Assembly: GCF_905475395.1 (NCBI RefSeq)
Contig: NC_058341.1
Span: 72,413,597 to 72,477,596 of the forward strand
Direction: 5' to 3'
Length of the DNA stretch: 64,000 bases
DNA from: Chrysoperla carnea
Lineage: Eukaryota; Arthropoda; Insecta; Neuroptera; Chrysopidae
Shown here: piece after piece, positions 20,081 through 57,027 of the stretch
Layout of the letters: the number at the start of each line of letters is the position of its first letter
Numbering within the stretch: the first letter of the stretch is position 1
Notes under the pieces: generated by a model
What the model was told of the DNA's origin: nothing
Databases searched by the model: none
The model's input: only the letters and a program-made list of their open reading frames with translations
Translations under genes and position numbers: made by a program

Positions 20081-21230
20081 TACTGGAATAAAACTAAGCA
20101 AAAAAAGGCTGTTATATGGATTAAAATGGTTCGGGCAGCGAAACTTTGGGGTTTTTCTTTTCACATCAAAATAAGTATTTTTTGAAATTTTTCACTTTCG
20201 AGGAGTGGTGCAACAGGTCTAACCAACAAAATGGCGTCAAAAATGGAATTTTTTTCAGAAATTTTATCATTTTTATTTTATATTCGCAAGAGGAGACATC
20301 GGTGTATCCAAATTTAGGAGGTTTGTAGTCAATGTTAAGAACTACTCCTCATATTTGGGGGGGGGGGTTCGTCCCTTCTCCCCTTACAGTTATATATATA
20401 TATATGTATACATACATGTGGTAAAACAGTTCATTTGACTGTAGCTTGAAAAATATTTGATTGATTTTAATGAAACTAATATCAATAGTAGGTTTTAGTA
20501 CTTACCACTTTCGGTTAAAATTTTAGCGAAATCCGTTAAATAGTTCGGCCAAAATTTCCAATTTAGTGAATTATTTAAAATGGCTGCCATTTTATGCCAT
20601 TTTGTCCTACGGGGTTAAATTAAAATTAAAATAATATTAATAATATTAATATTAAAATTTTTTAAATTGTAGTATTCTTTAATATCTTACGATTTTATAA
20701 TAACTTGCTTACCCGTAAAATGACTCCTTGATCCATATTTTTGCGAAAAACGGAAAATTTAACACTTTCTGGAAATAATTGTTTTGGGGGTGTTTGGACT
20801 GGCTTTCCCCGCGCTATTAGGGGAAAGGGGTGTATGGAATAAATGTATTTTAAAAGATTTTAAAAAGAGGTCAAAATAGTTTTAAATGGTAAAGTAACCC
20901 AAAACTTTAGATGTGTTTATTAATATAGCCCTTTTTACAGCATCCACCCCTCCCCCTCCCGCTTTCATATTTTTTGCAAATTCAGAATTTTTATGACGTA
21001 TAAAGGGGTTTTTGGGGTCGCTGATCTCGAATTTTGCATAAGATTATTAAAAAAAAAAATGGTAATATTTTAGGTAGTGTACTTATTTGGGCCAAAAAAT
21101 TCGAGATCAGCGACCCGAAAACCCCTTTATACGTCATAAAAATTCTTAATTTGAAAAAAATATGAAAGCGGGAGAGGGAGGGGTGGATGTTTTGAAAAGG
21201 GTTATATTAATAAGAACATCAAAGTTTTTA
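20081..21230 (+). repeat. Foldback family FB-C, copy A (plus orientation)
   Basis: The part from 20081 to about 20560 starts TACTGGAATAAAACTAAGC and matches, in reverse complement, 31219 down to about 30730. The following part (about 20690-21000) and its inverted partner (about 21080-21210) share CCCCTTTATACGTCATAAAA, GAAAGCGGGAGNGGGAGGG and TCGNNGATCTCGAATTT. A G-tract at about 20359-20368 and an AT microsatellite (about 20392-20410) lie within it. The second half is shorter than in copy B at 29890-31219. No coding sequence. Confidence 0.75.
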
Positions 21231-21976
21231 TTTTGTTTTGGGTTTGGTTCGAAAAATGTAAAGTGATCAATAATGCATTCGATAGTAATGAGTGTTAAAA
21301 TATTAATAAAATCGTAAATTTTTTCTTTTGGTTCGAACTTTTATTCTTAAACATATACATAATTAACATTTTCGTTCAATGAAACTATTTGCCATTATAA
21401 ATTACCTTTATAGATTAATCAACATCGTTATTTATGTATAGTAACGAACTTTTGAATTATTATATATTATAAATATTATATATCAAAATCAAAACTTAAC
21501 AATTTTCAAAAAAAAAAATTGCTGTATCTCCGTTTTCTGTAATAGTTTCCCACTTTTGAACGCAAGGTTTAAAAACTTCATAACCCAAAGTTATCAAAAA
21601 TCAATATCAGTATTTGGGATTTATATTTTCGGATCTATTTTTCCCGGTCTATTTTTTTTTTCGCTATTTTATCCGTCGCTATTTTTTCCGGGTCTAATTT
21701 TTCCGTCGCTTTTTTATCGTCGTTTCTTTTGCGTGTCTATTTTTTCCAAGTCTATTTTTTCTGGTCTATTTTTTTATTCGCTATTTTTTCTGTCGCTTTT
21801 TTCCGAGTCTAATTTTTCCGGCGCTATGTTTATCGTCGTTTTTTTGTGTGTTTATTTTTTCCAAGTCTATTTTTCCCGTCGCTATTTTTCCGATTACGGT
21901 GCTGAATGTTTACTGGCTAAACAACAAATATATATCTAATAATAATTAATATATCTAAGTACAGTTTTATACAGTT
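21231..21976. repeat. Non-coding stretch with a degenerate minisatellite
   Basis: About 21612-21895 is built from loose repeats of YCTATTTTTTCCG and CGTCGCTATTTTT. The 127-residue plus-strand frame over it is a low-complexity Phe/Leu/Ser-rich product of the repeat and not a gene. The rest of the stretch is AT-rich and unassigned. Confidence 0.65.
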
Positions 21977-22074
21977 CTCATTTTTAAAGTCCGCAAGATA
22001 CATACACACTTAGGGTTATGTAAAGTCCCTTTAAATAAAATTGCTGAATTCCGAAAATGTTCATTATATATATA
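21977..22074. repeat. Left half of the palindrome split by the Helitron
   Basis: These 98 bases are, by eye, an exact reverse complement of 27617-27714. The outer end reads CTCATTTTTAAAGTCCGC and the inner end reads TTCATTATATATATA, where the Helitron begins. Outside the arms similarity continues for about 10 bp after a 4-bp indel (TATACAGTT). A third, direct copy of the outer-end motif (TTTTAAGTCCGCAAG) is at 27801-27815. Confidence 0.92.
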
Positions 22075-22280
22075 TCTATATATATATATAATAAAACTAA
22101 GTCGATAAAATGTGCGGGCCGATAAAACTTAAAAAGGAGTCCCGACACGATAAAGGGACTTATGTGGTGTGATAGCCCTTTATCCCTCCTCGAACAAGAA
22201 AGTTCCCGTTTTAATCTAAAGGGCATGTTTTTAAAGATATAAGGGACTTTCCGACCCTTCAACTTGGAAATTAAGTGCAT

Positions 22281-22384
22281 TGGCGCCATCTGTTATCGAA
22301 TATTTGAACTTCGTTCAAGACATCCAATAGTCATAGTGTATAGTCTCCATAGTGGCGCCATCTGTTATCGAATATTTGAACTTC
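22281..22384 (+). repeat. Pair of 32-bp direct repeats upstream of the Helitron promoter
   Basis: The sequence from TGGCGCCATCTGTTATCG through GAATATTTGAACTTC occurs at 22281-22312 and again at 22353-22384, separated by 40 bp. It lies immediately upstream of the heat-shock-like elements. It may be a duplicated regulatory module, but no factor was recognised. Confidence 0.85.
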
Positions 22385-22388
22385 ATTA

Positions 22389-22485
22389 GAATACTCTAGA
22401 AGGTGTGAGAGAGAAATTTCTCGAATATTCTAGAGCCTAGCTCTCTGAATATATAAGAGCCCGGTGTCGCTCACCAGAGTTAGTT
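22389..22485 (+). promoter_or_regulatory. Heat-shock-type core promoter inside the Helitron
   Basis: At 22413-22430 four alternating 5-bp heat-shock units are perfect: GAAatTTCtcGAAtaTTC, followed by a near-unit GAG. A second cluster at 22389-22401 reads GAAtaCTCtaGAA, with one mismatch in the centre. A TATA box (TATATAAG, 22450-22457) follows. An initiator-like TTAGTT (22480-22485) lies about 32 bp downstream of it. This is the architecture of insect hsp70-type promoters. The following leader (GAACAGCGAAACGAGCG) is also reminiscent of hsp70 leaders. Capture from a host heat-shock gene is an inference. Confidence 0.75.
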
Positions 22486-22565
22486 TAATTTGAACAGCGA
22501 AACGAGCGATTTCAAAACGAAAAGAAGAGAAGTTATCTGTGAGCCTTTATTTAGAAGTATCACGT

Positions 22566-23104
22566 GTGAGTATTTTTAATAGTGTGTTTAATTAACTCTC
22601 GATTTTGAAACGAAATAGAAAAAAGTTATTTGTGGGTTTTTATCGTGAAATTTCAAATGTGAGTATTTTTAATAGTGTTTAATTAATTCTAATGGTTTTT
22701 TTTCTTTAAATTGTAATTTTCTTAACCTTCAAAAAGTCGCGCGGCGTCGAATTGATGCCTTCTATATACTTTTGGCCGTAAACAAAATATCGCTCGACCG
22801 CTTGAAGGTTAATTAACTCTCGATTTTGAAACGAAATAGAAAAAAGTTATTTGTGGGTTTTTATCGTGAAATTTCAAATGTGAGTATTTTTAATAGTGTT
22901 TAATTAATTCTAATGGTTTTTTTTCTTTAAATTGTAATTTTCTTAACCTTCAAAAAGTCGCGCGGCGTCGAATTGATGCCTTCTATATACTTTTGGCCGT
23001 AAACAAAATATCGCTCGACCGCTTGAAGGTTAAATATATTTTTTTTTGTCTCAACGTACCCCACGTTTCCGTTACAAAATGTTTATTTAATTTATATTTT
23101 ATAG
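22566..23104 (+). other. Putative 5' leader intron of the Helitron transcript
   Basis: A strong 5' splice site GTGAGT at 22566 follows the likely leader. A T-rich stretch ends in TTTATAG at 23104, exactly where the helicase frame opens: the TAG is itself an in-frame stop. Alternative GTGAGT donors lie at 22659 and 22880 inside the two tandem-duplicate copies. The fit between acceptor and frame opening supports splicing, but there is no transcript evidence. Confidence 0.5.
22590..23031 (+). repeat. 221-bp tandem duplication, two near-identical copies
   Basis: The copies run from about 22590 to 22810 and from 22811 to 23031, each starting AATTAACTCTCGATTTTGAA and ending GACCGCTTGAAGGTT. They lie in the putative leader intron. 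Each copy contains a GTGAGT splice-donor-like site and a short inverted repeat, AACCTTCAA near one end and TTGAAGGTT at the other. A slightly different flanking version of the first bases precedes the array. Confidence 0.93.
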
Positions 23105-26100
23105 AATACAATTCCCAGACGTAAGAGAGGAGGAGATTTGGCCAGTTCTGCAGCGAAACGGCGAAAAAAAAAAGAATCTCGAAGAAATGAAACGGAAGAA
23201 GAGCACGAAGCACGTTTACAGAATCAACGGACCAGAATGAGTAACCTGAGAAGCACAAGAAGCGAAGAAAGAACAGCAAATAAAAGTACTGAAGAGTCGA
23301 GAATTTTAAAAGATAATCTAACAAAGGAAGCATTCCACTACGAACCGACGAAAAAATATTACAATCATAAATACGTTGTTATTGGAAAAATGAATAACGT
23401 TTGCCAGTTTTGCCATGCAAAAAAATTCAGTAAAGAAACACCAGGTCTCTGTTGCATGAATGGAAAAATTCGATTACCACCAATTGAAGCACCTCCGCAG
23501 GAATTTCTGCATTACATGCTCGGGGAAACACTAGAATCAAAACACTTTCTCCAAAATATAAGATCATATAACTCCTGCTTTCAAATGACTTCTTTCGGTG
23601 CTACTTCGACTAACACTAATAGAAATGAATTTGAATATGTATTTTCAATTCAAGGGCAAATTTATCACAAAATAGGATCGTTACTGCCAATGTCTAACGA
23701 AGACCATAAATTTCTACAAGTATATTTCATCGGAAATGAAGAACAAGAAATTGATCAACGATGCACAAATTTTAATGGACTGAGACGCGAAATAATCCAA
23801 GATGTACAGAGGATCTTACACAAGTATAATCAACTGATTTATATATTCAAAACAACATTAGACCGCATGATTTCTGATGACTATAAAATTGTAATTCGAG
23901 CCGATAAAAGACCACGTGGAGAACACGAACGCAGATTTAATGCACCTCAGGTAGATGAAGTCGCCATTGTAGTTGTGGATAATGAAAATACAAGCCGTGA
24001 CATAATTGTACATCGAAGAAGAAAAGGACTACAACGCATTGCAGAGACACACCGTTCATATGATGCTCTTCAATATCCGTTAATATTTCTGCACGGAGAG
24101 GACGGATACCATTTCAATATAAAACAAATTCATCCTGAAACAGGCATAGAAACAAACAAAAAAGTCACTTCTAAGGAGTTCTATGCTTACCGCTTAATGA
24201 TCAGAGACAATGAAACATATAATCACATACTCAACACTCGCCGTTTATTCCAACAATTTCTGGTAGATATGTACGCAAAAATAGAAGCAGAACGGATGCT
24301 TTACATAAGATTGAATCAGAAAAAACTACGCACAGAAGAATACATCCACCTTCGAGACGCGATCATGAATGACGGCAATATTGACGATATTGGAACAATG
24401 GTAATCTTACCCTCATCATACATAGGAAGTCCAAGACATATGCACGAATATACACAAGATGCCATGACCTACGTAAGAAAATATGGACGACCTGATCTCT
24501 TTATAACATTTACATGCAATTCATCATGGCCAGAGATCAAAGAACAACTAAAATACGGACAAACCTCCATAGATCGACACGATATAATAGCCCGAGTTTT
24601 TCGACAAAAACAAATACGATTTATTGAAGTCATCACAAAATATCACATCTTTGGAACTGTTATTTCATGGATGTATACAATTGAGTGGCAAAAACGAGGA
24701 TTACCTCACTCACACAATCTCATATGGCTACACGATAAAATTTATCCCACGGATATCGACAAAATCATCCGAGCTGAATTTCCTGATCCACAAAAAGATC
24801 CGGAGCTTTACAACATAGTAGTGAAAAACATGATTCACGGACCATGTGGATCATTAAATTTCAATGCGCCATGCATGAGTGATGGAAAATGTACGAAAAA
24901 ATATCCAAAACCGTACTTGGACGATACCAAAACTGAAGATGACGGCTATCCCAAATATAGAAGACGATCACCGAAAAACGGTGGCTTCACAGCAAAAATA
25001 CGAATACAAGGCAGAGACGAACTGGAAATAGATAATCAATGGGTAGTACCGTATAATCCACTACTTTCCAAAATGTTCCAAGCACATATAAACGTTGAAT
25101 ACTGCAATTCAGTAAAATCTATTAAATATATATGTAAGTACGTAAACAAAGGTAGTGATATGGCAGTATTTCAAATAGTCCAAAATAGCGAACAAAATAA
25201 CAGAAATGATGAGATCCTCATGTACCAAATGGGAAGATACATCAACAGTAACGAAGCAGCGTGGAGGATTTTTAGTTTTCCCATACATGAACGCGAACCA
25301 GCTGTGCAACATCTAGCAGTACATTTGGAGAATGGACAGAGAGTTTACTTCACAAAAGACTCGGCTAGAAAAATTGCAAGCGAACCACCTCAGAACACAA
25401 CATTAACAGCTTTCTTCCAACTGTGTCAAACAGATCCATTCGCCAGAAAGTTATTGTATGTCGACGTCCCTATTTATTATACGTGGGACAAAACAAGGAA
25501 AATTTTTCAACGTCGGAAACAAGGAATGCCAGAGGAGGGTCATCCAGAAATCATAAAAACTAACGCAATAGGTCGAGTATTCACTGTACATCCAAACAAT
25601 GCCGAATGTTTTTATCTCCGGATGTTGTTACACGAAATACGGGGACCAACAAGTTTTACAGATCTCAGGACCGTTAATGGCTACCTATGCCAGACTTACA
25701 GAGAAGCATGTCAACGCTTAGGATTATTGGAAAACGACAACCACTGGGAATTAACACTACAAGAAGCCACACTCACAGCTTCAGCTGAACAAATTCGAGA
25801 GTTATTCGCTATAATATTAACAACATGTAACCCATCAAACCCAAAACAGCTATGGGACTCTTTCAAAAGGAGTATGAGTGATGATATATTGTACCAAGTC
25901 CAACAAGCTAATCCTGAACTGACTATAGAATTCAATGACGAGATCTTCAATGAAACACTCATTCGCTTAGAAGATAAATGTTTAGCAATAAATAATCAGG
26001 CCTTAGTAGAACTTGGAATGCCAGCACCACAAAGAAATGCTTTTAGTGTGCTAAACTACGAAATTATGAAGGAAAAAAGTTACAACATCAATGAACTACT

Positions 26101-27493
26101 TGAATACATTGCTCACAACAAACCACTTCTCAATGACAATCAAAAAAAAGTTTACGACGTTATAATGAGCCGGATAAATAACAATATTGGTGGAATTATT
26201 TACTTGGACGCACCAGGAGGCACTGGTAAAACGTTTCTCATAAATCTAATACTGGCGGAAATACGTGCTAAAAAACTCATCGCACTGGCACTAGCATCAT
26301 CTGGCATTGCAGCCACACTTATGGAAGGAGGACGAACTGCCCATTCTGCCTTACAACTACCATTGAATATAGCCGAACAACAATTCCCGGTATGTAAAAT
26401 TTCAGGAAAATCTGGACGTGGTCAAATTTTAAAACAAGCTAAAATTATCATCTGGGATGAATGCACCATGGCCCATAAAAAATTTATAGAAGCCATGGAC
26501 AGAACATTACAAGAATTGCGAAAAAACTCTGAAATAATGGGAGGAGCTCTACTCATACTCTCAGGAGATTTTCGACAAACACTTCCAGTTATTCCCAAGT
26601 CAACATCAGCAGACGAGATCAATGCATGCTTGAAAAAATCACATCTCTGGCCACAAGTACAAATACTGCAATTAACAAAAAACATGAGAGTTGAATTATC
26701 AAGAGATGAAACAACAGCACAATTTGCTAAAATACTTTTACAAATCGGCGAAGGTACATATCCTACTGACCAAACGACCGGCCTCATTGAACTTAATAGT
26801 GATTTCTGTAATATAGCCACTACTGAAGACGAACTAATCGACAAAATTTATCCAAATATTATTCAGAATTATACTAATGCAGAGTGGTTATTTCAAAGAG
26901 CAATTTTGGCCACTAAAAATAATATTGTTGACGATATCAATTTTAATATTCTAAAGAAAATACCTGGTGAAGAGAAAATATATAAATCGATCGACACGAT
27001 GGTATCCATTGAAGAAAGTGTCAACTTCCCCACTGAATTTCTAAACTCTTTACAAGTACCAGGAATGCCATTACACTGCCTTCGTCTGAAAATTGGAACT
27101 CCAATCATACTACTCAGAAATCTCAACTCCCCAAAATTATGTAATGGAACTAGAATGATCGTAAAACAGCTATCGAATAATATCATTGAAGCTGAACTTA
27201 TTTCTGGAAAGACCAAAGGACAGACAGTATTTATACCTAGAATACCTCTGATCTCTTCGGAATTGCCATTTCAATTTAAAAGACTGCAGTTTCCAATAAA
27301 ATTAGCCTTTAGTTTTACAATTAACAAAGCGCAAGGACAAACTTTAAAATATTGTGGCATTAACCTCAAAGAATCCTGCTTCTCTCACGGTCAGCTATAT
27401 GTAGCTTGCTCAAGAGTAGGAAATCCAAAAAATTTATGTATATATACTCCGGACAATAAAATGAAAAATGTTGTTTATAAACAAGTATTGTAA
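23105..27493 (+). CDS. Helitron replication protein: HUH Rep endonuclease plus PIF1-type helicase
   Basis: It nicks the Helitron end and unwinds DNA during rolling-circle transposition in the nucleus. The N-terminal part is basic, followed by a zinc-ribbon-like CQFC...GLCC near 23402-23455. The Rep part has FTCNSSWPE (about 24509), the HUH motif PHSHN (about 24704) and the two active tyrosines in KYICKY (Tyr codons near 25127 and 25139). The helicase part has Walker A GGTGKT (about 26216), Walker B IIWDE (about 26447), GDFRQTLPV (about 26564) and the C-terminal INKAQGQT with YVACSRVG. No stop or frameshift interrupts about 1460 codons, the usual length for animal Helitrons. The frame opens at 23105 behind a likely splice acceptor. 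There is no ATG before 23237, so the true start is uncertain: a non-AUG codon, a lost AUG (ATT at 23111) or the ATG at 23237, which still leaves all motifs. Confidence 0.95.
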   Translation, partial: NTIPRRKRGGDLASSAAKRRKKKESRRNETEEEHEARLQNQRTRMSNLRSTRSEERTANKSTEESRILKDNLTKEAFHYEPTKKYYNHKYVVIGKMNNVCQFCHAKKFSKETPGLCCMNGKIRLPPIEAPPQEFLHYMLGETLESKHFLQNIRSYNSCFQMTSFGATSTNTNRNEFEYVFSIQGQIYHKIGSLLPMSNEDHKFLQVYFIGNEEQEIDQRCTNFNGLRREIIQDVQRILHKYNQLIYIFKTTLDRMISDDYKIVIRADKRPRGEHERRFNAPQVDEVAIVVVDNENTSRDIIVHRRRKGLQRIAETHRSYDALQYPLIFLHGEDGYHFNIKQIHPETGIETNKKVTSKEFYAYRLMIRDNETYNHILNTRRLFQQFLVDMYAKIEAERMLYIRLNQKKLRTEEYIHLRDAIMNDGNIDDIGTMVILPSSYIGSPRHMHEYTQDAMTYVRKYGRPDLFITFTCNSSWPEIKEQLKYGQTSIDRHDIIARVFRQKQIRFIEVITKYHIFGTVISWMYTIEWQKRGLPHSHNLIWLHDKIYPTDIDKIIRAEFPDPQKDPELYNIVVKNMIHGPCGSLNFNAPCMSDGKCTKKYPKPYLDDTKTEDDGYPKYRRRSPKNGGFTAKIRIQGRDELEIDNQWVVPYNPLLSKMFQAHINVEYCNSVKSIKYICKYVNKGSDMAVFQIVQNSEQNNRNDEILMYQMGRYINSNEAAWRIFSFPIHEREPAVQHLAVHLENGQRVYFTKDSARKIASEPPQNTTLTAFFQLCQTDPFARKLLYVDVPIYYTWDKTRKIFQRRKQGMPEEGHPEIIKTNAIGRVFTVHPNNAECFYLRMLLHEIRGPTSFTDLRTVNGYLCQTYREACQRLGLLENDNHWELTLQEATLTASAEQIRELFAIILTTCNPSNPKQLWDSFKRSMSDDILYQVQQANPELTIEFNDEIFNETLIRLEDKCLAINNQALVELGMPAPQRNAFSVLNYEIMKEKSYNINELLEYIAHNKPLLNDNQKKVYDVIMSRINNNIGGIIYLDAPGGTGKTFLINLILAEIRAKKLIALALASSGIAATLMEGGRTAHSALQLPLNIAEQQFPVCKISGKSGRGQILKQAKIIIWDECTMAHKKFIEAMDRTLQELRKNSEIMGGALLILSGDFRQTLPVIPKSTSADEINACLKKSHLWPQVQILQLTKNMRVELSRDETTAQFAKILLQIGEGTYPTDQTTGLIELNSDFCNIATTEDELIDKIYPNIIQNYTNAEWLFQRAILATKNNIVDDINFNILKKIPGEEKIYKSIDTMVSIEESVNFPTEFLNSLQVPGMPLHCLRLKIGTPIILLRNLNSPKLCNGTRMIVKQLSNNIIEAELISGKTKGQTVFIPRIPLISSELPFQFKRLQFPIKLAFSFTINKAQGQTLKYCGINLKESCFSHGQLYVACSRVGNPKNLCIYTPDNKMKNVVYKQVL

Positions 27494-27512
27494 ATAATGA
27501 GAAAACGTTTTC

Positions 27513-27518
27513 AATAAA
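27513..27518 (+). terminator. Polyadenylation signal of the Helitron gene
   Basis: AATAAA lies 20 bp after the stop codon and is followed by a T-rich stretch, as expected for a eukaryotic 3' end. Confidence 0.6.
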
Positions 27519-27588
27519 CTTTTTTTTTACTTTTTACGTCATAGTTTATTTTTTTATTTCGACTCTACCACGTCATCTCATATCAACT

Positions 27589-27616
27589 CCCGGGCGAAGC
27601 CGGGTTTTTAAGCTAG
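27589..27616 (+). other. Helitron 3' terminal hairpin and CTAG end
   Basis: Stem CCCGG (27589-27593), loop GCGAAG, stem CCGGG (27600-27604), then TTTTTAAG and the terminal CTAG. In Helitrons this hairpin acts as the stop signal for rolling-circle transfer. Confidence 0.95.
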
Positions 27617-27714
27617 TATATATATAATGAACATTTTCGGAATTCAGCAATTTTATTTAAAGGGACTTTACATAACCCTAAGTGTGTATGTATCTTGCGG
27701 ACTTTAAAAATGAG
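27617..27714. repeat. Right half of the palindrome split by the Helitron
   Basis: Exact reverse complement, by eye, of 21977-22074. It starts TATATATATAATGAACATT directly after the Helitron CTAG and ends GGACTTTAAAAATGAG. Its presence fixes the Helitron boundary to the base. Confidence 0.92.
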
Positions 27715-28145
27715 ACAAAACTGTATATTAAATATATTTGGTGGCATTAAAACACATATTAATTAATGTGTAAATATATTTGATATACAGCTTTGTCGCA
27801 TTTTAAGTCCGCAAGTAGACATAAGTAGACATTGTACAACAATTACACAATTGTATGGCACGAAATCTATTTTATCTGCTGACCTATGGAATCGAACCCC
27901 GAGGATTGATGTATCCATCAACCTGAACGAAAGCGCGGATCCCTGCCAGCTCAAAGTTCTTAAGATAACTTAGTTTATTAGATAATGTAGACATCGAATG
28001 GAAAAACTAGGATAGATCAATTTTTGCATTCGATTTCCACCGAAATTTGAATATTTAAAATTTGTTTGCTGCACAAGTTGTTAATTATTATTTTATAAAA
28101 AATAACTTTTGATGCCATGTTTAAATGTAATACATATCAAGTATA
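27715..28145. other. Non-coding stretch with a repeat end and a possible tRNA-like segment
   Basis: A third copy of the palindrome's outer motif (TTTTAAGTCCGCAAG) lies at 27801-27815. On the minus strand GGTTCGATTCC (27888-27898) is a perfect pol III B-box. The upstream A-box candidate near 27938-27948 is poor, so a tRNA gene is not called. Confidence 0.4.
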
Positions 28146-28640: not shown

Positions 28641-29889
28641 TTCACAAATTTTCCCTCTATATCGTTCATTAGCTATAATCATGAATGGTTTTTTGCTTTT
28701 TTTTTAAATGATCTTGAAAGTAAAGGTCTCTATAATATGTCCCCTAATTGTTTTAAATGAGACAACATGAATCAATCAATTCCCATAATTATTAATTGCC
28801 TATTTTATCGACCCATTTCTTTTTTTAATTAAGGCACAAGATATTTATTTAATAAAACATATTTTTTTGCCAATTATATTTAAACTCATTGAAAGTAATC
28901 AATATACAATATTTATTGTATTTTTTATTGATGCCTTGAGTTCAATTATTATTATTATAAGTATAAAGTAGGTTAATTGATCAGACACAAATATTAAATT
29001 ATTATTATTGTTATTAAAGTCCAGTAATAATCAGCACATCCGACTAACAACTATTCTTCCTCAATTTTTGTATACGATTATCTTCAAATTGCCCTACTGA
29101 TGCGATGATATACATGTTGCCAGATTGGAAAATTTGTTTACAATTTTTCTTAATAAAATTGCGAAAATTGATTATTATGCCTTTGTAAAAAGTTCTTCAA
29201 GTTATTTGGAAAATTTATTTTGGTAATTTTTTTAGTACTTTTGTTTAAAACTAATAGTTTCAGAGATATTAATTATTTAAAATTCCAAAAAATTATGTTG
29301 TCAAATTTTTTAAAATCTTCAAAAATCCGTTAACAAAGTTCCATAGCGTTTTAGGCATTTATTATATTAAAAGCACTTTTATTTTAATAAATAATTAAGT
29401 GATTACATATATAAAAAGCAACCCATTTTAATTGATGGACCCAAATATCTTCTAAAATACTTACACTACAAAAAAATGTTTCGTACAAAATTTTATCAGA
29501 TTAAAGTGGAACATCTGCTTCTTCTGGATTCTTTAATAGTTAACTCATATCCTGAACAGTAAGAGATAGAATAACACTTTAAATAGGGAATATTCATGTA
29601 TTTTTTTATATTTTTAATTCATTGTTTACACCGTTATAACAAAGTAAAAAATATAAATACTGCTTAAAAATGCTGTATTTAAGTGTAAAAAAATATTAAA
29701 AATACATTATAATTTTGAGATATTTAAACGCAGTTTTTTGGCGCTCTCTGTTGATGACGTATAATAATGTAAGTACATGATCTGTCAATTTTTGAGAATT
29801 CAATGTATAATTTACACTTAAAAAATGAATTTACAACACAGAATTTACACTCGTTATTATTAAATACCATATAAAATGTAAGTAACTGT
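28641..29889. other. Non-coding stretch, nothing recognised
   Basis: AT-rich DNA with TTATTATTATTA-type runs near 28945. No supported exon or RNA gene. Confidence 0.45.
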
Positions 29890-31219
29890 TTGGAGGGTGT
29901 ATGGACTGGCTTTGGGGGGTGTTAATTGCTTTGGCTTGAGAAAACTATTTTTAAAAGAAATCTATATGATTTTAAGCAAAATTTTTAAGTTTTAACCCCC
30001 GCGCTATTAGGGGGAAGGGGTGTTTGGAATAAATGTATTTTAAAAGATTGAAAAAATAGGTCAAAATAGTATTAAATGCTAAAATAACCCAAAACTTTAG
30101 ATGTTTTTGTTAATAAAGCCCTTTTTACAACATCCACTCCCCTCCCCCACCCGCTTTCACATTTTTTTGCAAATTCAGAATTTTTATGGCGTATAAAGAG
30201 GTTTTTGGAGTCGCAAATCTCGAATTTTGCTTTAGATTATCAAAAAAAGGTAATATTTTTAGGGGGTGTACTTAGTTGGGCCAAAAAAGGCGAATCGTAT
30301 CAATTTATACATTTCGCCTCAAATATCAGCCTCAAAAACCCCTTTATACGTCATATAAAAATTTTGAATTTACAAAAAATATGAAAGCGGGAGGGGGAGG
30401 GAAGTGGATTTTGTAAAAAGAGCTATATTAATGAAAACATCTAAAGTTTTGGGTTACTTTAGCATTTTAAACAATTTTGAACTCTTTTTAAAATCTTTTA
30501 AAATACATTTATTCCATACACCCCTTTCCCCTAATAGCGCGGGGGTTAAAACTTAAAAATTTTGCTTTAAACCATATAGACCTCTTTTAAAAGTAATTTT
30601 CTGAAGCCAAAGCAGTTAACACCCCCCAAAGCCAGTCCATACATACTCCAAACAATTATTTCTAGAAAATGTTAAATTTTCCATTTTTCGCAAAAATATG
30701 GATCAAGGAGAAATTTTACGGGTATGCAACTCATCATAAAATCGAAAAATAATAACTATTGAACGGATTTCGCTAAAATTTTAACCTAAGTACTAAAACC
30801 TGCTATTGGTATTAGTTTCATTAAAATCAATCAAATATTTTTCAAGTTACAGTCAAATGAACTGTTTTACTATATGTATGTATACATATATATATATAGC
30901 TGGGAGGGGAAGAGACGAACCCCCCCCCACAAAAATATGAGGCGTAGTTCTTAACATTGACTACAAACCTACCAAAGGATATGCATCGATGTCTCCTCTT
31001 GCGAATATAAAATAAAAATGATAAAATTTCTGAAAAAATCATTTTTGACGCCATTTTGTTGGTTAGACATGTTGCACCACTCCGGGAAAGAAAAAAATTT
31101 CGAAAAATACTTATTTTGATGTGTTATTTTGACTTATTTTGAAAGGAAAACTCCAAAGTTTCGCTGCCCGAACTTTTAATCCATATAACAGCCTTTTTTT
31201 GCTTAGTTTTATTCCAGTA
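29890..31219 (-). repeat. Foldback family FB-C, copy B (minus orientation)
   Basis: About 29890-30290 and 30310-30660 form an internal inverted repeat. Landmarks are GGAGGGTGTATGGACTGGCT with its partner, CCGCGCTATTAGGGGGAAGG, and GAAAGCGGGAGGGGGAGGG. From 30660 to 31219 it continues into the unique arm shared in reverse complement with 20081-20560. Together with copy A it flanks a ~9-kb segment containing the Helitron in inverted orientation. A C-tract lies near 30921-30929. No gene; the minus frame inside is a repeat artefact seen also in copy A. Confidence 0.78.
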
Positions 31220-36221: not shown

Positions 36222-38065
36222 CATTTGTTTGAAACATTTTTTGGTCAATCATCATAGTTTACCCGTGAGGACACAAATACATAACATAAATTATTTCATA
36301 ACGCTAGCTTAGCATATAGCTAATTTAAATTCTTAATTAAACCAGAAATAGGTAAATTGAATTATAGCATATTATTGTACTGATATTGATAGTACAATAT
36401 TTTCGTCATAATGGTGCATATAAGTCTCATTTTTATTGTTTTATCGTCTGGAATATGGCCAGTTGATACAATATTTTTGGATTCTGTTAGTAAAAACTGG
36501 CAGTTATCGTTTTTTTCATTGCACTGCGTTTACCTGTTTTGTTACAAAATGAATTTTATGGTACTTCTTAAATATATATAACAATTCGCGTGATATTTAA
36601 CTGTTTTAGCCATTAAATCCAACACGCCACCAATTCTTTTATGAATATTTTCACATATTACACTTTCACATATTATGAATACTCACTTTTCTCATAAGTT
36701 GTTAAATTTGTAAATGTTTTCCTTGAAGTCAAAGGTAGCTGCTCGAAGGTTCTTCTTAGGTGGAGAGAAAATAGTTCTGGCCTAAATAGTGCCCTCACGT
36801 GCCCAAGATCACACAAATTTTTGTTTTTAATTTCTTTATGTCAACTTTAAACAATGCCGTCAAAAAGTATTAGATTCATTGACTGGTCCCGGATTCCGAG
36901 GTATAAATCTTACGGCGCTCCACTAATTACCAAAAAGAAATTTTTTTAATGTTAATTAAATTTTTTTCAGATGTATTACACATGCACTTGAAATAATAAT
37001 GGAATTGAAAATAATGATATTAAAAATTAATAATTAAAGAAAAAACATTACCTGCTCATTATAATTAGTGATAATTTTATATATTATTCTTGCAAAATAA
37101 ATATAATTTTAATTAGAAAGTGATTAAAATTATTATTATTCGTTTCACTAATCATCAATCATGAACAATTATGAAGGTAAGTCTATTTATTATATTAAAT
37201 GTTATCAATCAGATAAATTAAATGAAAAGCGGTATAGGTGCGACCCGAAAGGTCCACACGACTAACTTCCCAGTGGAAAGGATAAAAAATATCACATGTT
37301 TTAATATTTATAATTTTTTTTGTAAAAATTTTTTTTTTCGTTTCTTCCTGCACCCCCGATGACGTTAAAACTATATAAATAATCAGTGATAATAGTGACA
37401 ATTATACAATTTTTCATTCCTTACAAACAACGTCTTGATCGATTTTGCTCAAAACCTAATCAGGTCTAGGTTACATAATTATGCGTTAAATGAAACCATA
37501 TCAATATCATCATTTGTTCTCGAGATATGCGAGACGAAAATTGAATCCGAACATTCATACATACATACATGTGCACGCACGGACATCCTAAAAACTTGGA
37601 GATATGTCTAAATTTTCAATTTGCAAAATCTTACCCATTACAATAACTATCCCACTGGGAAAGAAAAATACAAGGTAGGGTAAAACAGTGTTCTTAAAAT
37701 ACTTACAAAAGCAAAAGATTTTCCAATATGGTATTTGCAGTTCCACTTTTCGACAGAATTTAACGAATTTTTTTCAGATGCTAAAACTAGGGCTTGCTAT
37801 TAAATACTATTAATTTTGAGCATCAAAATTTAGTTTTATTTTACTATCATACAGATGTTTATTTGAAAAATGCCGAAACTAAGCCTCAAATCGTTATCAG
37901 TACATGAAAAACTCAAGTTAATATCTGATTACGTTTACTACTCTTTGTAGAATAATTCAGAATAAAGATAAAATTCAATCACAATATATATGTAATATAT
38001 ATGTAAGTATGTCCTTTTCAGCGCTTTATAGACCAAACGCCTAGAAAAATTTTGATGATTCTTAC
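35668..38065. other. Non-coding stretch with an R1 fragment and an A-tract
   Basis: About 36150-36285 contains an R1 fragment (ACAAAAGTTTAAAC, TTGTTTGAAACATTTTTTGG, TTTACCCGTGAGG) with a ~30-bp A-tract at about 36188-36218. About 36805-36860 (AAGATCACACAAATTTTTGT) resembles 55885-55935. CATA repeats lie near 37556-37570. About 38020-38065 is the part of a ~155-bp repeat unit that Copia-1 split. No gene was recognised. Confidence 0.5.
38061..38065. repeat. Copia-1 target-site duplication, left copy
   Basis: CTTAC directly left of the LTR, matched by CTTAC at 42581-42585. Confidence 0.9.
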
Positions 38066-38242
38066 TATTAAGATAAATTCGGTATATATAGAGAATATGA
38101 CAGATGTGTTAACATGAACGATTTTATTAGAACAACTAAAAAACATACAAAAGGTGATACATAATATAATGGTGATAACGCGCATGCGTTTACTTATTGT
38201 ACATAATTTGAATTGCTTAATTTTAGTAATATTTATCTGACA
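38066..38242 (-). repeat. Copia-1 3' LTR
   Basis: 177 bp, minus-strand TGTCAGATAAATATTAC...TTAATA. It looks identical to 42404-42580. It contains AATAAA (minus strand CTAATAAAATCG) as a possible polyadenylation signal. Confidence 0.95.
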
Positions 38243-38251
38243 CTCCTTCTC
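38243..38251 (-). other. Copia-1 polypurine tract
   Basis: The minus strand reads GAGAAGGAG immediately upstream of the 3' LTR. It is the expected start site for plus-strand DNA synthesis. Confidence 0.8.
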
Positions 38252-38304
38252 AATTTAAATCATGTTACAGAATTAGTTTCCAAAAAAAAAAACAAAAAAA
38301 AATA

Positions 38305-41300
38305 TTATTTAAACAAATTAAGTTTGTTAACAAAGAATTTAAATTTCACTGAATTTAGAGATTTAGTAAAAATATCTGCAATATTATTATTTGACTGCAC
38401 GTATTGTAACTGAATAAGATTTTTATGTAACAAGTCTTTAATGAAATGATATTTAATGTCAATATGTCTGGCACGTCTACTGTTTTCATAACTTTCGCAC
38501 ATATTTATTGCACTTTGGTTATCAACTAATAATATTGGTGTAGGATTAACGCACTTTAGGTCTTCAATCACTCGTTGAAAATATATGACATCCATTGCCG
38601 TAGTAGCACAAGCAATGTATTCCGATTCAGCTGTAGATTGTGCAATACAGTTTTGCTTTCTCGTAAACCAGGAAACTGGATTGCCACAATGGAACACAAT
38701 ACAACCACTGGTGCTTTTTCTAGAATTTACATCCCCTGCCCAATCAGCATCAGAGTATGCAGTAACACCAGTATCTTGACTCTTGTAAAACTTCAATTGG
38801 TATTCTTTAGTACCTTGTAGATACCTGAGTACTCTTTTGGCCGCCAACCATAGTTGCTGGGTGGGTTTATCTAGATATCTACTTAGAATCGACGTAGCAT
38901 ATGTGATATCTGGCCTACTTATGATGCTAATGTAAATAAGAGATCCAACAAGTTCTCTATATGGTAAACCTTTGTCTATTGGCAAAGATAAATTGACCTG
39001 GAAATTATGTTCCATCGGTGTCTCTGCAGGTTTGCAATCAGTCATGTTGAACTTGGCAATAACCTTGTGAATGAATTCTTTCTGTGAAATACCGATGAAC
39101 TCAGTTGTAAAGTTGATTTCTGTACCTAGAAAGTTTTTAATTTCTCCCATATACTTAGCTTGAAATTCATTTTTTAAGAAAGTAATAATCTTTTTACACT
39201 CATTTGAGTTTCCAGTGACGATGATGTCATCAACCCAAATTAATAGGTAAGTGTCTTTTCCAGTGTACAAACAGAAGTCATTTTGTGATCTGGATAAACC
39301 ATATCTCCTCACAGCATCATTAAATACTTCATTCCACTTCCTTGGAGCAGAACGTAGGCCATACAAACTCTTGTTTAGTTTCAAAGCATTCGATGAGCAT
39401 TTGACTCCTTCTGGTATCTTGATATAAACTTCATCATCGAGCTTACCGTTTAAAAAAGCTGAAGGTATATCTAATTGGAAAATATTCCATCCTTTCTGCA
39501 TGGAAACTGACAGCAAGATTCTAATCGTTGAAATCTGGACTACTGGCGCATATATATTTGAAGATACCTCTTCTTGAAAGCCTTTCGCCACTAAGCGAGC
39601 TTTCTTAAGGCCATCTGACTTGATAGTGAATACCCAGCGAGTATCAATAGCTTTAACATTCGTAGGTAGATTGACTGGTTTCCAGGTATCATGATCATTT
39701 AAAGCTTTTATCTCCTTCTGGATGGCTTCTTTCCACTCTTCACCAGAGTTGACAGCATCTTCATAGGATGTAGGTATACCTGTGATCAAGCAATAAGCTA
39801 AGTGTACTTCCTCTTCACTACTATGAAAGCTCTCATCTGCAGGCTCATTATTATTGTACACAACATAATCCTCGAATCTACTAGGAATAGTTTTTTCTCT
39901 TGTACTTCTTCGAAGTGGCTCATCTTGAACTTGACATTCTTCGTTCGTTTTTTCTTCTTGAGGTATTTCATTTCTTTTTGCTGTCTCTGTATTATCTATA
40001 TATAACTGAGGTACATTCTCAGTAAAAGTCTGATTTTCAGGTTGGTTGTGGTAAACAAAATCTTCTTCATCAAAGGTAACGTCCCTAGAAATAATTATCT
40101 CATTTGTTTTGGGTTTCCACAATCTGTAACCGTTTCTGGCATATCCAACCATTACACACTCAACAGCTCTCCTTTCCAACTTGTCTGCTGGTACAGGCAA
40201 TATATGTGCCCAAGCCTTCGAGCCAAAAACTTTCAGCTTCTCGTAATTGACTTTACCCAGAAATATCTCTGCAGGAACCTTTTTGCTCTGTAATGCAACT
40301 GTTGGCGAGCGATTTAACTGGTAGGCAGCACAACACACTGCTTCACCCCAAAGGTGCTTTGGTAACTGTGTCTCAATAAGCATAGTTCTCACCTTACTCA
40401 TTAGAGTGAAATTGATTCTTTCGCTGACCCCATTTTGTTGCTGAGTATATGGCAATGTGTACTCGTTCTCTATGCCCTTTTGTTTACAAAAGTTTTTATA
40501 AACATGCGAGGAAAATTCACCTCCACAATCTGAGCGTATCCTAGCAGAATAATAACCACGAGCTTTTAATTGCCTAATGTAACTCATCAAATTTGTTTCT
40601 GCTTCATTTTTCTGTTTCAGAAGAAATACTTGACAGTAGTGTGAATAATCGTCAATAATTGTTTGATAGTATTTTTCTCCACTCAATGTCAATGTTTTAA
40701 AGGGTCCAGCAATATCACTATGCGTAAGCTCACCAATACGTTTAGATCTTGGCAAAGGAACATTATTAAAGGGTTTTCTCTTTGCTTTCCCTTGTTTGCA
40801 TGGGCTACATGCTCCAAAGTCATTTGGAAAATTTAAAAGTCTTAAACTTTGTGCATTTAAATGTCCAAGGCGCTGGTGCCATAAGATATCTTTATTTGAA
40901 GATATAAAACAAGAATCATCTGATTTTAAATCAAAGTGAGCAACGTACAAATTTCCTAAAGTTTGACACTTTATGTTTAGGTTGTTTTTAGAAATGGTTG
41001 CACTTTCACCACCAACATTGAAATTTACATTATAACCTTTCATTGCTAACTTTTTAACAGATAACAGATTGTATTTAAGTTTAGGCACTACAATAACAGG
41101 CAACTTTATGTCCACTTTTTTATTTTCCTTAGAATTGTGAGCTTTTACATTCAAATAACCTCTATGCGTACCTGTTATCACAACACCATTAGCAATAAGA
41201 ATGTCCATTTTATTTTGTAAAGTTTCCAAACGCTCGACATATTTCTCGAAGTCACCACTGATCCAGTGGTTAGTAGCACCACTATCTAAAATAAATTTGA

Positions 41301-42246
41301 TCTGCTTGCATTGTAGCTTCGACGTTAAAGCTTCATTCAATATCGAGTCACATGAAGCAATGAAGTCAAATTCTTCATTATTCGCGTTTCCATCTTTTGC
41401 GACGTTTGATTTTTCACTATGTTCAGTAGGTGTCGTATGTCCCCTACCTCGTCCACCACGTCGACCACGAGAACGGCGAGAACTTCGTCCATGATTTCCT
41501 TGTGTTGTGTTTCGCTTCATTGTGTCATTTTTAAATGATGGGCACTCATTTTTAAAATGACCTCTACCACCACATCCATGGCAAACTAAATTTTTTCTAT
41601 AATCACTATTGCTGGAAGATGTGTAAAAAGAATGTGATTCTTTTGTACCTGAGGTACACGATGTTTCTTTTTCTTTCAGCTCTTGATCTAATAACCTTGT
41701 TTTTACATCTGCATAAGAATACACTGTCTTGTCTTTGTTCATGATAGTCTCTATGGAGGTAATTACATTTTCAAATTTTTCGGGCATGGTTAAAAGCAAA
41801 TAACACGTTTTGTCCGTATCATCTGTGGGTGTTTTGCTTACACCATCCAATTCTTTGATAAGCCGCTCAAATACCAGGAAATGATCTTGTAATTCGCCAT
41901 CTACAAACTTCAACTTTAGAATTTTACGCATTATAAACATCTTTGACAAAGCACTTTTTCGATGAAAAACATCTTCAAGATTTGTAAACATTTCTTGAGC
42001 AGATTTCGCGTTTTCTATATACTCAATATATGAATCAGAAACCGTTTGTGCAATAATGTATTTGGCTTTATTGTCCATGGTATTAAATTTAATTAATTCG
42101 TCATCTTTCAAGTTTTCTCTTTCTTCGTTTGAAATATCAACTGGAAGGATTACCTTTTCCTTCTCTAACAGTAAACGAAGCCTATACTTCCAAGTAGAAA
42201 AATTATCAGGTTTTAATACCGGCAAAGGTACAGTTGACATCGCCAT
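38305..42246 (-). CDS. Copia-1 Gag-Pol polyprotein (1313 residues)
   Basis: A single uninterrupted frame. Gag: UBN2-like region (about 1-200) and CCHC zinc knuckle (Cys222, Cys225, His230, Cys235) followed by an Arg/Gly-rich RNA-binding stretch (about 252-270). Protease: DSGATN at 321-326. Integrase: zinc-binding His457, His462, Cys480, Cys483 and catalytic Asp511, Asp573, Glu609, with the usual 35-residue spacing. Reverse transcriptase: Asp926 in the AFLNG block, YGLRSAPRKW (about 962-971) and WVDD at 1004-1007, where YVDD is usual. RNase H: YSDADW, STAESEY and HIDIKYHFI near the C terminus. Length and domain order fit an intact copia polyprotein cleaved by its own protease. The start is the first ATG after the leader. 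Confidence 0.96.
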   Translation of the reverse strand: MAMSTVPLPVLKPDNFSTWKYRLRLLLEKEKVILPVDISNEERENLKDDELIKFNTMDNKAKYIIAQTVSDSYIEYIENAKSAQEMFTNLEDVFHRKSALSKMFIMRKILKLKFVDGELQDHFLVFERLIKELDGVSKTPTDDTDKTCYLLLTMPEKFENVITSIETIMNKDKTVYSYADVKTRLLDQELKEKETSCTSGTKESHSFYTSSSNSDYRKNLVCHGCGGRGHFKNECPSFKNDTMKRNTTQGNHGRSSRRSRGRRGGRGRGHTTPTEHSEKSNVAKDGNANNEEFDFIASCDSILNEALTSKLQCKQIKFILDSGATNHWISGDFEKYVERLETLQNKMDILIANGVVITGTHRGYLNVKAHNSKENKKVDIKLPVIVVPKLKYNLLSVKKLAMKGYNVNFNVGGESATISKNNLNIKCQTLGNLYVAHFDLKSDDSCFISSNKDILWHQRLGHLNAQSLRLLNFPNDFGACSPCKQGKAKRKPFNNVPLPRSKRIGELTHSDIAGPFKTLTLSGEKYYQTIIDDYSHYCQVFLLKQKNEAETNLMSYIRQLKARGYYSARIRSDCGGEFSSHVYKNFCKQKGIENEYTLPYTQQQNGVSERINFTLMSKVRTMLIETQLPKHLWGEAVCCAAYQLNRSPTVALQSKKVPAEIFLGKVNYEKLKVFGSKAWAHILPVPADKLERRAVECVMVGYARNGYRLWKPKTNEIIISRDVTFDEEDFVYHNQPENQTFTENVPQLYIDNTETAKRNEIPQEEKTNEECQVQDEPLRRSTREKTIPSRFEDYVVYNNNEPADESFHSSEEEVHLAYCLITGIPTSYEDAVNSGEEWKEAIQKEIKALNDHDTWKPVNLPTNVKAIDTRWVFTIKSDGLKKARLVAKGFQEEVSSNIYAPVVQISTIRILLSVSMQKGWNIFQLDIPSAFLNGKLDDEVYIKIPEGVKCSSNALKLNKSLYGLRSAPRKWNEVFNDAVRRYGLSRSQNDFCLYTGKDTYLLIWVDDIIVTGNSNECKKIITFLKNEFQAKYMGEIKNFLGTEINFTTEFIGISQKEFIHKVIAKFNMTDCKPAETPMEHNFQVNLSLPIDKGLPYRELVGSLIYISIISRPDITYATSILSRYLDKPTQQLWLAAKRVLRYLQGTKEYQLKFYKSQDTGVTAYSDADWAGDVNSRKSTSGCIVFHCGNPVSWFTRKQNCIAQSTAESEYIACATTAMDVIYFQRVIEDLKCVNPTPILLVDNQSAINMCESYENSRRARHIDIKYHFIKDLLHKNLIQLQYVQSNNNIADIFTKSLNSVKFKFFVNKLNLFK

Positions 42247-42393
42247 TTTTTTTTATCACACACTCTAATGTTTATGTCACTTATAAAACCAATGTTTTTC
42301 TAATGTTTTATATCACTTATAAAACTAATGTTTTTCTAATGTTTTATGTCACTTATAAAACTTTACTTTTTACATATTACCGAAATTTTTATA

Positions 42394-42403
42394 GCCCATA
42401 ACC
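42394..42403 (-). other. Copia-1 primer-binding site
   Basis: The minus strand reads GGTTATGGGC directly after the 5' LTR with no gap. It complements the anticodon-loop region of initiator tRNA-Met (…GCCCAUAACC…), the half-tRNA priming used by Drosophila copia. Only 10 nt match here. Confidence 0.75.
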
Positions 42404-42580
42404 TATTAAGATAAATTCGGTATATATAGAGAATATGACAGATGTGTTAACATGAACGATTTTATTAGAACAACTAAAAAACATACAAAAGGTGATACAT
42501 AATATAATGGTGATAACGCGCATGCGTTTACTTATTGTACATAATTTGAATTGCTTAATTTTAGTAATATTTATCTGACA
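42404..42580 (-). repeat. Copia-1 5' LTR
   Basis: 177 bp, identical by eye to 38066-38242. It should contain the promoter on the minus strand; no clear TATA box other than AT-rich TATATATAC near its end was assigned. Confidence 0.95.
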
Positions 42581-44104
42581 CTTACATCAATCGATTTGTA
42601 TTAATCTTGCCAGTGTCCCTAAAGATGGAATACAAAAAATCCAACATAGTGACAACCAGACGCCATATTGAGAAAGGAAAAAAAGAAAATTCGACGTAAT
42701 ATGTTAAGTGGATTATCATCGAATAGATATTTGAAAATCCTAACTACAAAGTTTAAAATAAAATAATAAATTTGAAAAATCAAATTTCATCTCAAAATCT
42801 TTCAAATAATGGCCCCGAAGTCGCTATGTAAACTATTGAACTTGTTTTCTTCTTTATATAACGTAATCGGGTATTGAAAATTTTTAAATGATTTTTTTAT
42901 TATACATGGATAATGGGGGCTTATAATGAAAATATAAATTCGTTAATATACTTTTTAATAAAATCCAGATGTAAAAAATGTGCTATTAAAATATTTTTAC
43001 AATTGCTAATTAAAATATGGCACGTTTAAAACAAAATTTATGAAGAACCCGTGCGATTACTAATGACCTAATAAATCCAAATACCATTTCACAGCTTCTT
43101 TTACGAAATACATATATTTAGTACCAAAGAGTTTTAGGTAGCCATCCAGCCCTTTTACTGGCTTGAAGTAAATTGTGCATTTTTTTTTAAATTAACATTG
43201 GCGGCTAAAAGACCTCTTTGATTCAATGAAATAAGTATTTGACTTTTTTAAAATTAAAGTATAGTAAGAAAATATTGTCCTAAATCAAAGTATTTACATG
43301 CTGCCTTAAAAACAAATTTTCCTTTCAGTACTTTTTTTTCGGTTGATTTAGTTCTCAATAAAATTCACGGTAAAGTACATATTTTAGTGCAAAAACAGAA
43401 ACCTGAATATTTCGAAAAGCTAAATTTCAGTTTTTTTTTTTTTTACTCTATTTAATCGATAACTGGAAGTACAATTCAAGAAAAGTTTCTAGGGCCTATA
43501 CTTTCTCGTAAGACAGTCAACAAATGTTAACTAAAATTAAATGTTAAAAATTAACATTTTGTAAAAAATTTTTTCACCAAAATTTACACGGTAAAGTATG
43601 ATCGAAACTTCACTATACGATACATAATGACTTGAACTATTATAAAAAAAATTATTTTTCTTTGTTATTTAAAGTTTTTTAATTAACGGCGACGAAAGGG
43701 CTTCCTTTAGTTTAGATATAAAAAAATTGTGTTTCCCGGCGGACTATGGGTAAAAAGTTTAATAATATTTCACCTATCTCAAATATATAAAGTTCGCCCT
43801 TTTGGAAGCTTTCAAAATGAAAAAACATTCCATATAATTTTTAGAATCACCAGTATCGGCGAACTGTATACAGAATTTTACAAAAATATGCAATGGAGTA
43901 GTCACTTAGTTATAGCGAATTCTATACACACAAATAAAACAAAAATATTTAGAAAATTTTTGGACTAGGTTTAATTAAAACTTAAAATTTTAAAGACTCA
44001 TTATATTATAAGACCCATTATTGCAGCTAAATTAAGCCGAAAACGAAATAAAGTTACTTAATACATATTTACTTTTAAAGTTACTAAATATTTTACTTTA
44101 CTTA
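42581..44104. other. Non-coding stretch with diverged repeat unit and hairpin arm
   Basis: CTTAC (42581-42585) is the right Copia-1 target duplication. About 42586-42665 is the rest of the ~155-bp unit (minus orientation, ending CCAGACGCCATATTG). About 42810-42870 is a single arm of the 18547-18797 hairpin (GTCGCTATGTAAACTATTGA). The rest is AT-rich and unassigned. Confidence 0.55.
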
Positions 44105-47153: not shown

Positions 47154-48631
47154 AAAACATTCTAGTAAGTTTAGTAAAATATTTCAATGAAAACTTATTG
47201 CTTTCAAATTTGCTTGTAATGCGAAAATTAAGGTCCAAAAAGCTCATACGGGAACTTAGTTTTTTTTAGCTTTTTATAGCCAACAAGAAAAATAAACAAA
47301 CTTTCGAGTGGTCTTAACTTTGTTGAAAAATAATTTTTAAAATTTTTTGAACGCTTTTACATTTTCATTTGAACACTTTTACATTTCTCATACTGAGGAT
47401 TGATCTTCAGTATAAAGTGGCAGGGAGTGATAAAATTTTGAGCAATAGATTCCAAAAGTAGAAAATACAAGTTTTCTAATAATGAGCATGATAAGATTTT
47501 AGATAACGCCTTCTTTTTTATAAAATGGCGGCCAGTTCTATTTTTGACATTTTTGACCAGTTCTGTTTTAAAAATGAAAAGTGGGAGAGTTATAATAACT
47601 TCAATGCGATGATTATTTCAAAAGATTCAGAAATTTAAAGCTCGTACAAGAATTTGTTTAGCTCTTTTTTAAGAAAAATATGGCACCTTTCGAATGGGAA
47701 AATCGAATGATTTTAGTAAAGAACAAATTTTGTGTTAAAAAATTTTCCCTCAGTACTTTGGTTGTGTATGCTATTAACTGGCAGCTGGATGACCGAGCTT
47801 TGCTCGTTATTTATTTTTAAAGAGACCTATGAAATGAAAAAATGTAATTTATTTTAAGTTTCCGAGAAAAAATAATGTTTTCTTAAAATGAAACCTAGCT
47901 AGATCGATTTTTTATCCCAAAACACTCTGCATACTAATCGTGTAACAACGCCATCTACTAAAACCTATCTTAAATGTTTCAGTGACGGTAAAGCAGTTAG
48001 TTGCTCCTAATTTAAAAAATGATAGTATTTCTACTCGCCAAAGATGGCCGTAGGAGTCACATTTTTCAGTTTGTTTCAGTTTTTCCTGAAACATGGATCA
48101 AATGACATTTTCTAAAAATGAAACCAAGCTAATTCGATTTTTTGCCCCAAAAAACCCTGCATACTGATTTTTATGAAAATCGTTGCAGCCGCGAGATATA
48201 ACACGAGATAATTAATGCTAAAACTACCGATTTTGACAATTTACATCAAAATAAATATCTCGAAAACAAAACGACTTTGTTTTTTTATTTATTTATTTTT
48301 TATTCCAAAAACATTCTTTTCAATTCCACTTTTTACTTTATTATATTATAAATATAATAGAGTTTTGTGATCGAACTAAAAATCGATATGGGGGTTTCAA
48401 CGGAAATATACGTTTTGAGGGTCCCTGATTCCAAAAAAGTGGTTTTTAAAAAATATTGCGTCCGTCGGTATGTCGGTATTTCTGTTACCAAGCTGGAGCC
48501 TTCAATTTTCAACCGATTTTTCTCAAACTCGGTACATTGGTTCAGTTTGGTCATAATTCCAGACGAATTTTTCATTTTTTCCCTAGACCTTTTTTTAAGG
48601 GTACTTCCCTCTAGGCCAAAACATGATTTTT
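47154..48631. other. Non-coding stretch, nothing recognised
   Basis: AT-rich DNA. Two segments near 47870-47935 and 48110-48175 resemble each other (AAATGAAACC, GATTTTTTNNCCCCAAAA, CATACTGAT-like). The overlapping frames at 48333-48669 on opposite strands have no known domain. Confidence 0.4.
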
Positions 48632-56614: not shown

Positions 56615-56886
56615 TATTGGTTTTATAATCGGACACTAATAATTAATTATATATTTCGTTTATTTAAATTAATTATTATAAAGAAAATTACATTCATTGT
56701 ATAACAATACACATTACAAAATCATTCATACATTCTACATTCTGTCATAAAGAACTATTACTACTATTTTCAACTATCCATGGTAGCAAAACATCGTACT
56801 ACAGTACTACAGTTTATGATATATAAACTAAGCAAAATATCGCTAAACATGATAACTGTGATGTTACGATATTAATAATTCCAACA
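56615..56886 (-). repeat. Copia-2 3' LTR
   Basis: 272 bp, identical by eye to 61192-61463. The minus strand contains TTTATATATC (possible TATA region) and TTTAAATAAACG (possible polyadenylation signal). Confidence 0.95.
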
Positions 56887-56895
56887 CTCCCCTTT
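56887..56895 (-). other. Copia-2 polypurine tract
   Basis: The minus strand reads AAAGGGGAG immediately upstream of the 3' LTR. Confidence 0.82.
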
Positions 56896-57027
56896 AACAT
56901 CACAATTGTCAACATCAAAATCATATAAATACATAGCAATACATAAATTCAATTTTCAATGCTATTCTCAGTACATGTAATACAATAAAACATTAGAAAA
57001 TTAAATATCTTAATTTTAATTGAAACA

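Follow-up and report, generated by a model that had tools for sequence, protein, structure and literature searches.

A lacewing Helitron with a putative HSF-responsive promoter upstream of its Rep-helicase gene

The Rep-helicase of the C. elegans element Helitron1_CE was reported to be heat-induced in an HSF-1-dependent manner (PMC6765114, PMC6927752), with weaker induction after hsf-1 RNAi and stronger induction when HSF-1 was overexpressed (PMC6765114). F33H12.6, whose promoter region contains 14 HSEs, was likewise described as heat-induced, and the authors suggested that promoter HSEs may originally have served Helitrons that encode a transposase for mobilisation on stress (PMC6927752). In wheat, a predicted nTTCnnGAAn element is located in the promoter region of Feng8, which belongs to the Xuan-Feng family, and GUS was reported to increase at 37 °C with the 966-bp Feng8 promoter (PMC13286980). 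In C. elegans, several promoters dedicated to heat shock are reported to have HSEs of four or five units, and the HSF-1 domain binds cooperatively to most of the HSEs assayed in that report. As to insects, no Helitron with HSEs was named in the titles or abstract openings of the papers listed in literature searches, and a case in a paper outside these lists would have escaped notice. The alpha-gamma repeats at 87C of D. melanogaster are an insect repeat with hsp70 promoter sequence that is transcribed on heat shock; they differ from the lacewing element described here in that they are neither a Helitron nor an autonomous transposon.

The window, i.e., the whole stretch of 64,000 nucleotides that was analysed, includes an element that is a nearly intact Helitron with possible damage at the start codon of its transposase gene (Table 1). 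Inspection of the sequence and comparison of the flanks placed its 5′ end at a TC (22075) and its 3′ end at a CTAG, the last base of which is 27616. The 3′ terminus consists of a hairpin, CCCGGGCGAAGCCGGG, followed by TTTTTAAG and the CTAG, and the insertion occurred between an A and a T (flanks ...ATATA and TATAT...). The element has the terminal features of the class, namely a 5′ TC, a 3′ CTRR preceded by a hairpin, and insertion between A and T; TC, CTRR and the hairpin are the termini described for Helitrons in the literature (PMC6544945). The flanking regions 21976-22074 and 27617-27715 are 99-bp perfect inverted repeats, and the Helitron lies exactly at the centre of this palindrome. The match extends further, with 92% between 21948-22074 and 27617-27738, joined at a (TA)n centre. 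The idea that the 99-bp repeats are the ends of the Helitron itself was rejected. Since they lie outside TC...CTAG and, once the flanks are abutted, join in a TA-rich centre, they were taken as the target, possibly a palindromic MITE.

Table 1. Positions within the window of the features of the Helitron and its putative promoter
Feature	Positions	Strand	Details
Helitron	22075..27616	+	5,542 bp; sequence and flank comparison; Helitron Rep/PIF1 domains within
Two 35-bp direct repeats with TGGCGCCATCTGTTATCGAA	22281..22387 (22281-22315, 22353-22387)	+	97%; directly 5′ of the HSEs
Imperfect HSE trimer GAA-CTC-GAA	22389..22401	+	8/9 letters; sequence
GAGAGAG, GAGA-factor-type site	22407..22413	+	overlaps first HSE unit; about -75 to -69
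Four perfect contiguous HSE units GAA-TTC-GAA-TTC	22413..22430	+	about -69 to -52; sequence, shuffles
CTCTCT, inverse GAGA-type site	22441..22446	+	sequence
TATATAAG, TATA box	22450..22457	+	about -32; sequence
Initiator-like TTAGTT	22480..22485	+	predicted start A22482, inferred
Predicted non-coding exon 1	22482..22565	+	84 nt, no ATG; then GTGAGT donor; splice site predicted only
Predicted leader intron	22566..23104	+	three GTGAGTATTT donor copies (22566, 22659, 22880); acceptor TTTTATAG
221-bp perfect tandem duplication	22588..23029	+	within predicted leader intron
Rep-helicase ORF	23114..27493	+	Helitron_like_N, PIF1, Pif1 2B

The ORF of this element codes for a Rep domain fused to a PIF1-type helicase (Helitron_like_N, 2.6e-56; PIF1, 1.5e-63), the combination that identifies a Helitron. 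H532, H534, Y672, Y676 and G1036-T1040 are all present, each at an invariant column of an alignment of 20 sequences; we take them to be the two HUH histidines, the two tyrosines and the Walker A motif, respectively. The closest match, best of the 120 listed among the 1,108 that passed, was the Chrysoperla carnea protein P0001, to which 89% of the query aligned locally at 100% identity; in the 20-sequence alignment the identity was 99%. On this basis Chrysoperla (Neuroptera) is taken as the host. The P0001 cluster has 46 member sequences, which may represent many close copies. Codon 23111, where P0001 has its start Met, is ATT in the window copy. Met is nearly invariant (at least 90%) at this column of the 20-sequence alignment, and the translation has its next in-frame Met 42 codons downstream, ahead of the Rep domain. 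Because ATT replaces the start Met of P0001, the window copy may be damaged and may fail to initiate translation at its normal site. In a search for relatives of the Rep-helicase, a single-protein pattern matched 3 stretches of the viral contigs, and a pattern derived from the 20-row alignment matched 17; in the genome contigs, 97 stretches matched. None of these stretches was a relative by tblastn in the collections scanned, which may omit records of the Helitron's own genome. Exact patterns representing 46 bases of the 5′ end of the Helitron and 32 bases of the 35-bp repeat had no matches in the viral contigs.

Other features were observed in the window. Two copia-type retrotransposons have long open ORFs on the minus strand (38065-42582 and 56615-61463), and 180 and 272 bp, respectively, are identical between their two ends, presumably the LTRs; the identical ends together with the long ORFs make both elements look recent. 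A 305-bp inverted repeat at 29880-30661, with arms 88% complementary and 172 bp between them, has partial similarity (81%) to 20807-21228. Nothing in the window matched in scans with Rfam (at the gathering threshold) or ARAGORN.

An earlier, sequence-only reading had identified four contiguous perfect heat-shock units, a near-perfect trimer upstream of them, the TATATAAG sequence and a TTAGTT 32 bp further on, all located inside the Helitron and 5′ of its Rep-helicase gene. Direct reading of the sequence found every one of these motifs in its place, and their location within the element agreed with the TC/CTAG ends and the position of the ORF. The four perfect units, at GAA 22413, TTC 22418, GAA 22423 and TTC 22428, follow a 5-bp register, and the array exceeds the minimum of three contiguous alternating nGAAn units expected in a heat-shock (HSF-responsive) promoter. 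A fifth unit at 22433, GAG, matches in two of three letters. The upstream trimer is out of the register of the main array, as the distance from GAA 22399 to GAA 22413 is 14 bp. The predicted start, A22482, lies 32 bp after the start of the TATA box. Inside the 35-bp repeats that precede the HSEs is GGCGCCATCTGT, which in our view resembles the insect CTCF core. The GAGAGAG and CTCTCT sites had not been listed in the sequence-only reading; GAGAG/GAGAGAG is described as a functional GAGA motif in Drosophila (PMC4336284). With them, the region has the insect hsp70-type layout known from Drosophila, an HSE near a TATA box together with GAGA motifs, and the four units, the GAGA motif, the TATA box and the initiator-like site are found in the correct order ahead of the ORF.

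Downstream of the predicted start, the last base of the predicted acceptor TTTTATAG is 23104, which leaves six bases to the start-codon position 23111. The donor region is triplicated, in part because of the 221-bp perfect tandem duplication. Each 221-bp copy has an inverted repeat, TTAACCTTCAA...TTGAAGGTTAA (22722-22812 and 22943-23033), that resembles a small insertion flanked by TTAA. With its short non-coding exon and an intron immediately ahead of the start codon, the predicted leader is more like that of insect hsp83/hsp90 than that of the intronless hsp70. Should strong heat shock block splicing, a leader intron would be a handicap, which counts against a heat-driven promoter.

Considering this anatomy, we think that the region is probably an HSF-responsive promoter that makes the Rep-helicase gene stress-inducible. 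Upon heat or proteotoxic stress, trimeric HSF would bind the array of contiguous nGAAn units, which lies about 50-70 bp 5′ of the start, and the GAGA-type sites, if bound by GAF, would perhaps hold the promoter open. Transcription would begin about 32 bp after TATATAAG, and the transcript, which would include the short non-coding exon, would become Rep-helicase mRNA after removal of the leader intron. Since this mRNA would be made upon stress, transposition may be coupled to stress.

The frequency with which such motifs arise by chance was estimated by shuffling. A perfect four-unit array was present in 6 of 300 dinucleotide shuffles of the whole window (mean 0.02), and the real window has 2. 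Perfect trimers number 6 in the window, compared with a shuffle mean of 1.18 and a maximum of 6 in 300 shuffles, and 4 of these 6 fall in a 139-bp tandem repeat. This repeat (48627-49182, about 4 copies) has heat-shock-like trimers, GGAAAATTCGAGAA, in three copies, one of which extends to a perfect four-unit array at 48871. In the 1,063 bp of the Helitron that precede the ORF, the perfect four-unit array was generated in 15 of 20,000 shuffles and, in a second run on the same region, in 49 of 60,000 dinucleotide shuffles. The array accompanied by a TATA box 5-40 bp downstream was found in 2 of 60,000 shuffles of this region, and addition of a nearby GAGAG or CTCTC left none in 60,000; as the patterns were fixed post hoc, once the promoter site had been seen, these figures overstate the surprise. 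The motifs may have no regulatory meaning, or the promoter may work without HSF, and the array at 48871 counts in that direction, since it is an example of such an array that has no visible promoter. The absence of P0001's start Met from the window copy also counts against an HSF promoter. Nonetheless, chance is not a comfortable explanation for the arrangement of array, TATA box and GAGA motifs, given the rarity of the array, alone or with the TATA box, among the shuffles and its location 5′ of the transposase gene, and we regard a fortuitous or HSF-independent arrangement as quite unlikely. Published surveys bear on the HSF reading as well. According to the report on C. elegans, few HSE-containing genes are specifically heat-induced, and Garrigues et al. 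reported that, among the UCSC genomes, Helitrons are enriched in HSEs only in Caenorhabditis (PMC6927752). Both results count against an HSF-responsive promoter in the lacewing, but the latter comes from a genome-wide test of enrichment, and the motif printed in that report, NGAANNTCCNNGGAN, would not match the 22413-22430 array.

The sequence-only reading had also proposed that the promoter was captured from a host hsp70 gene. The region was compared with a D. melanogaster hsp70 promoter sequence, used as an approximate query. The distance from CTCGAAT to the TATA box is 30 bp in the Helitron and 29 bp in this approximate D. melanogaster promoter. The core (22380-22530) had a score of 29; at least this score was obtained with 49 of 5,000 shuffles and with 17 of 5,108 window slices (overlapping, from both strands), and the top slice, at 31.5, covers this very HSE site on the reverse strand. 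The stretch that follows the TATA box (22458-22530) was at shuffle level, its score being reached by 1,906 of 5,000 shuffles. A 221-bp slice compared using a longer leader gave a local score of 29.0, and 103 of 2,000 shuffles did at least as well; among 3,190 slices of the window, the top one, located elsewhere, scored 46. Homology to D. melanogaster hsp70 is not claimed, considering the behaviour of the post-TATA stretch and the higher-scoring slice. What the Helitron promoter and the D. melanogaster query appear to have in common is the HSE and the TATA box only. A heat-shock-type promoter driving the Rep-helicase, as the sequence-only reading had it, fits the anatomy and the experimentally supported Caenorhabditis and wheat precedents. 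Capture from a host hsp70 finds no support beyond the motifs themselves.

The hsp70 promoters of Stratiomys and Drosophila are reported to have practically nothing in common but HSEs and TATA boxes (PMC4336284), so the absence of a longer similarity is compatible with both capture and convergence, and either origin is compatible with an HSF-responsive promoter. Capture from a host heat-shock gene, of the hsp70 or the hsp90/hsp83 type, would account for the hsp-like layout, including the GAGA motif and the TATA spacing, and, in the case of hsp90/hsp83, for the short non-coding exon and the intron directly ahead of the start codon. Helitrons are also reported to pick up gene fragments (PMC6544945). 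However, the similarity to the D. melanogaster hsp70 query ends with the HSE and the TATA box, and the consensus of the 20 aligned Helitron proteins has Met-Pro where the ORF starts, indicating that the ORF start was not captured; we consider such a capture a tentative proposal, on the unlikely side. The strongest version, in which the lacewing Helitron family took a complete host unit (GAGA, HSE, TATA box, initiator, non-coding exon and intron) and thereby coupled its transposition to heat, seems doubtful. If it were true, each insertion would be a ready-made heat-inducible promoter able to rewire neighbouring genes, independently of the worm and wheat cases. Convergence, in which the HSE array and the TATA box evolved inside the element by mutation and selection, has in our estimate an even chance of being correct. 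Worm and wheat Helitrons have heat-response motifs too, TATA-like words are easy to obtain in an AT-rich background, and the array is adjoined by the imperfect trimer and the 35-bp repeats; on the other side is the failure of the shuffles to produce the array, the TATA box and the GAGA motifs together.

If the promoter is indeed HSF-responsive, nematodes, wheat and lacewings, hosts that are far apart, would all three have Helitrons with heat-responsive transposase promoters, which would be an argument for the use of HSF as a recurrent Helitron strategy. A connection that the genome-wide enrichment test of Garrigues et al. revealed only in Caenorhabditis would then also hold for insects, and an insect used in biological control would become a system for testing heat-driven gene rewiring by a transposon.

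Comparison with the known systems shows both the resemblances and the differences. ONSEN/ATCOPIA78 of Arabidopsis is, like the lacewing element, a transposable element reported to have a heat-stress-responsive promoter with such a motif, but it is an LTR retrotransposon from a plant (PMC13286980). Insect hsp70 genes (D. melanogaster, Stratiomys) have an HSE next to the TATA box with similar spacing and, in Drosophila, GAGA motifs (PMC4336284), whereas the Helitron promoter showed no similarity after the TATA box, has a predicted leader intron and would drive a transposase. Xuan-Feng/Feng8 is closer, an autonomous Helitron member with a predicted heat element and a heat-responsive promoter; it differs in its plant host, in the two-unit element quoted for it and in that mobilisation is reported for wheat (PMC13286980), while the lacewing element is known from its sequence. 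Helitron1_CE and Helitron7_CB share with the lacewing element the location of the HSEs within the Helitron and 5′ of the Rep-helicase; in C. elegans these are described as HSF-1-bound and HSF-1-dependent on heat shock. The worm elements belong to a different phylum and are reported to have many HSEs (14 and 85 upstream; PMC6927752, PMC6765114), in contrast to the lacewing Helitron, read here from sequence, with one compact array that ends 19 bp before the TATA box and is accompanied by GAGA motifs. The mechanism is thus known in kind from worms and wheat, and the lacewing Helitron is a new candidate with a more hsp-like core promoter.
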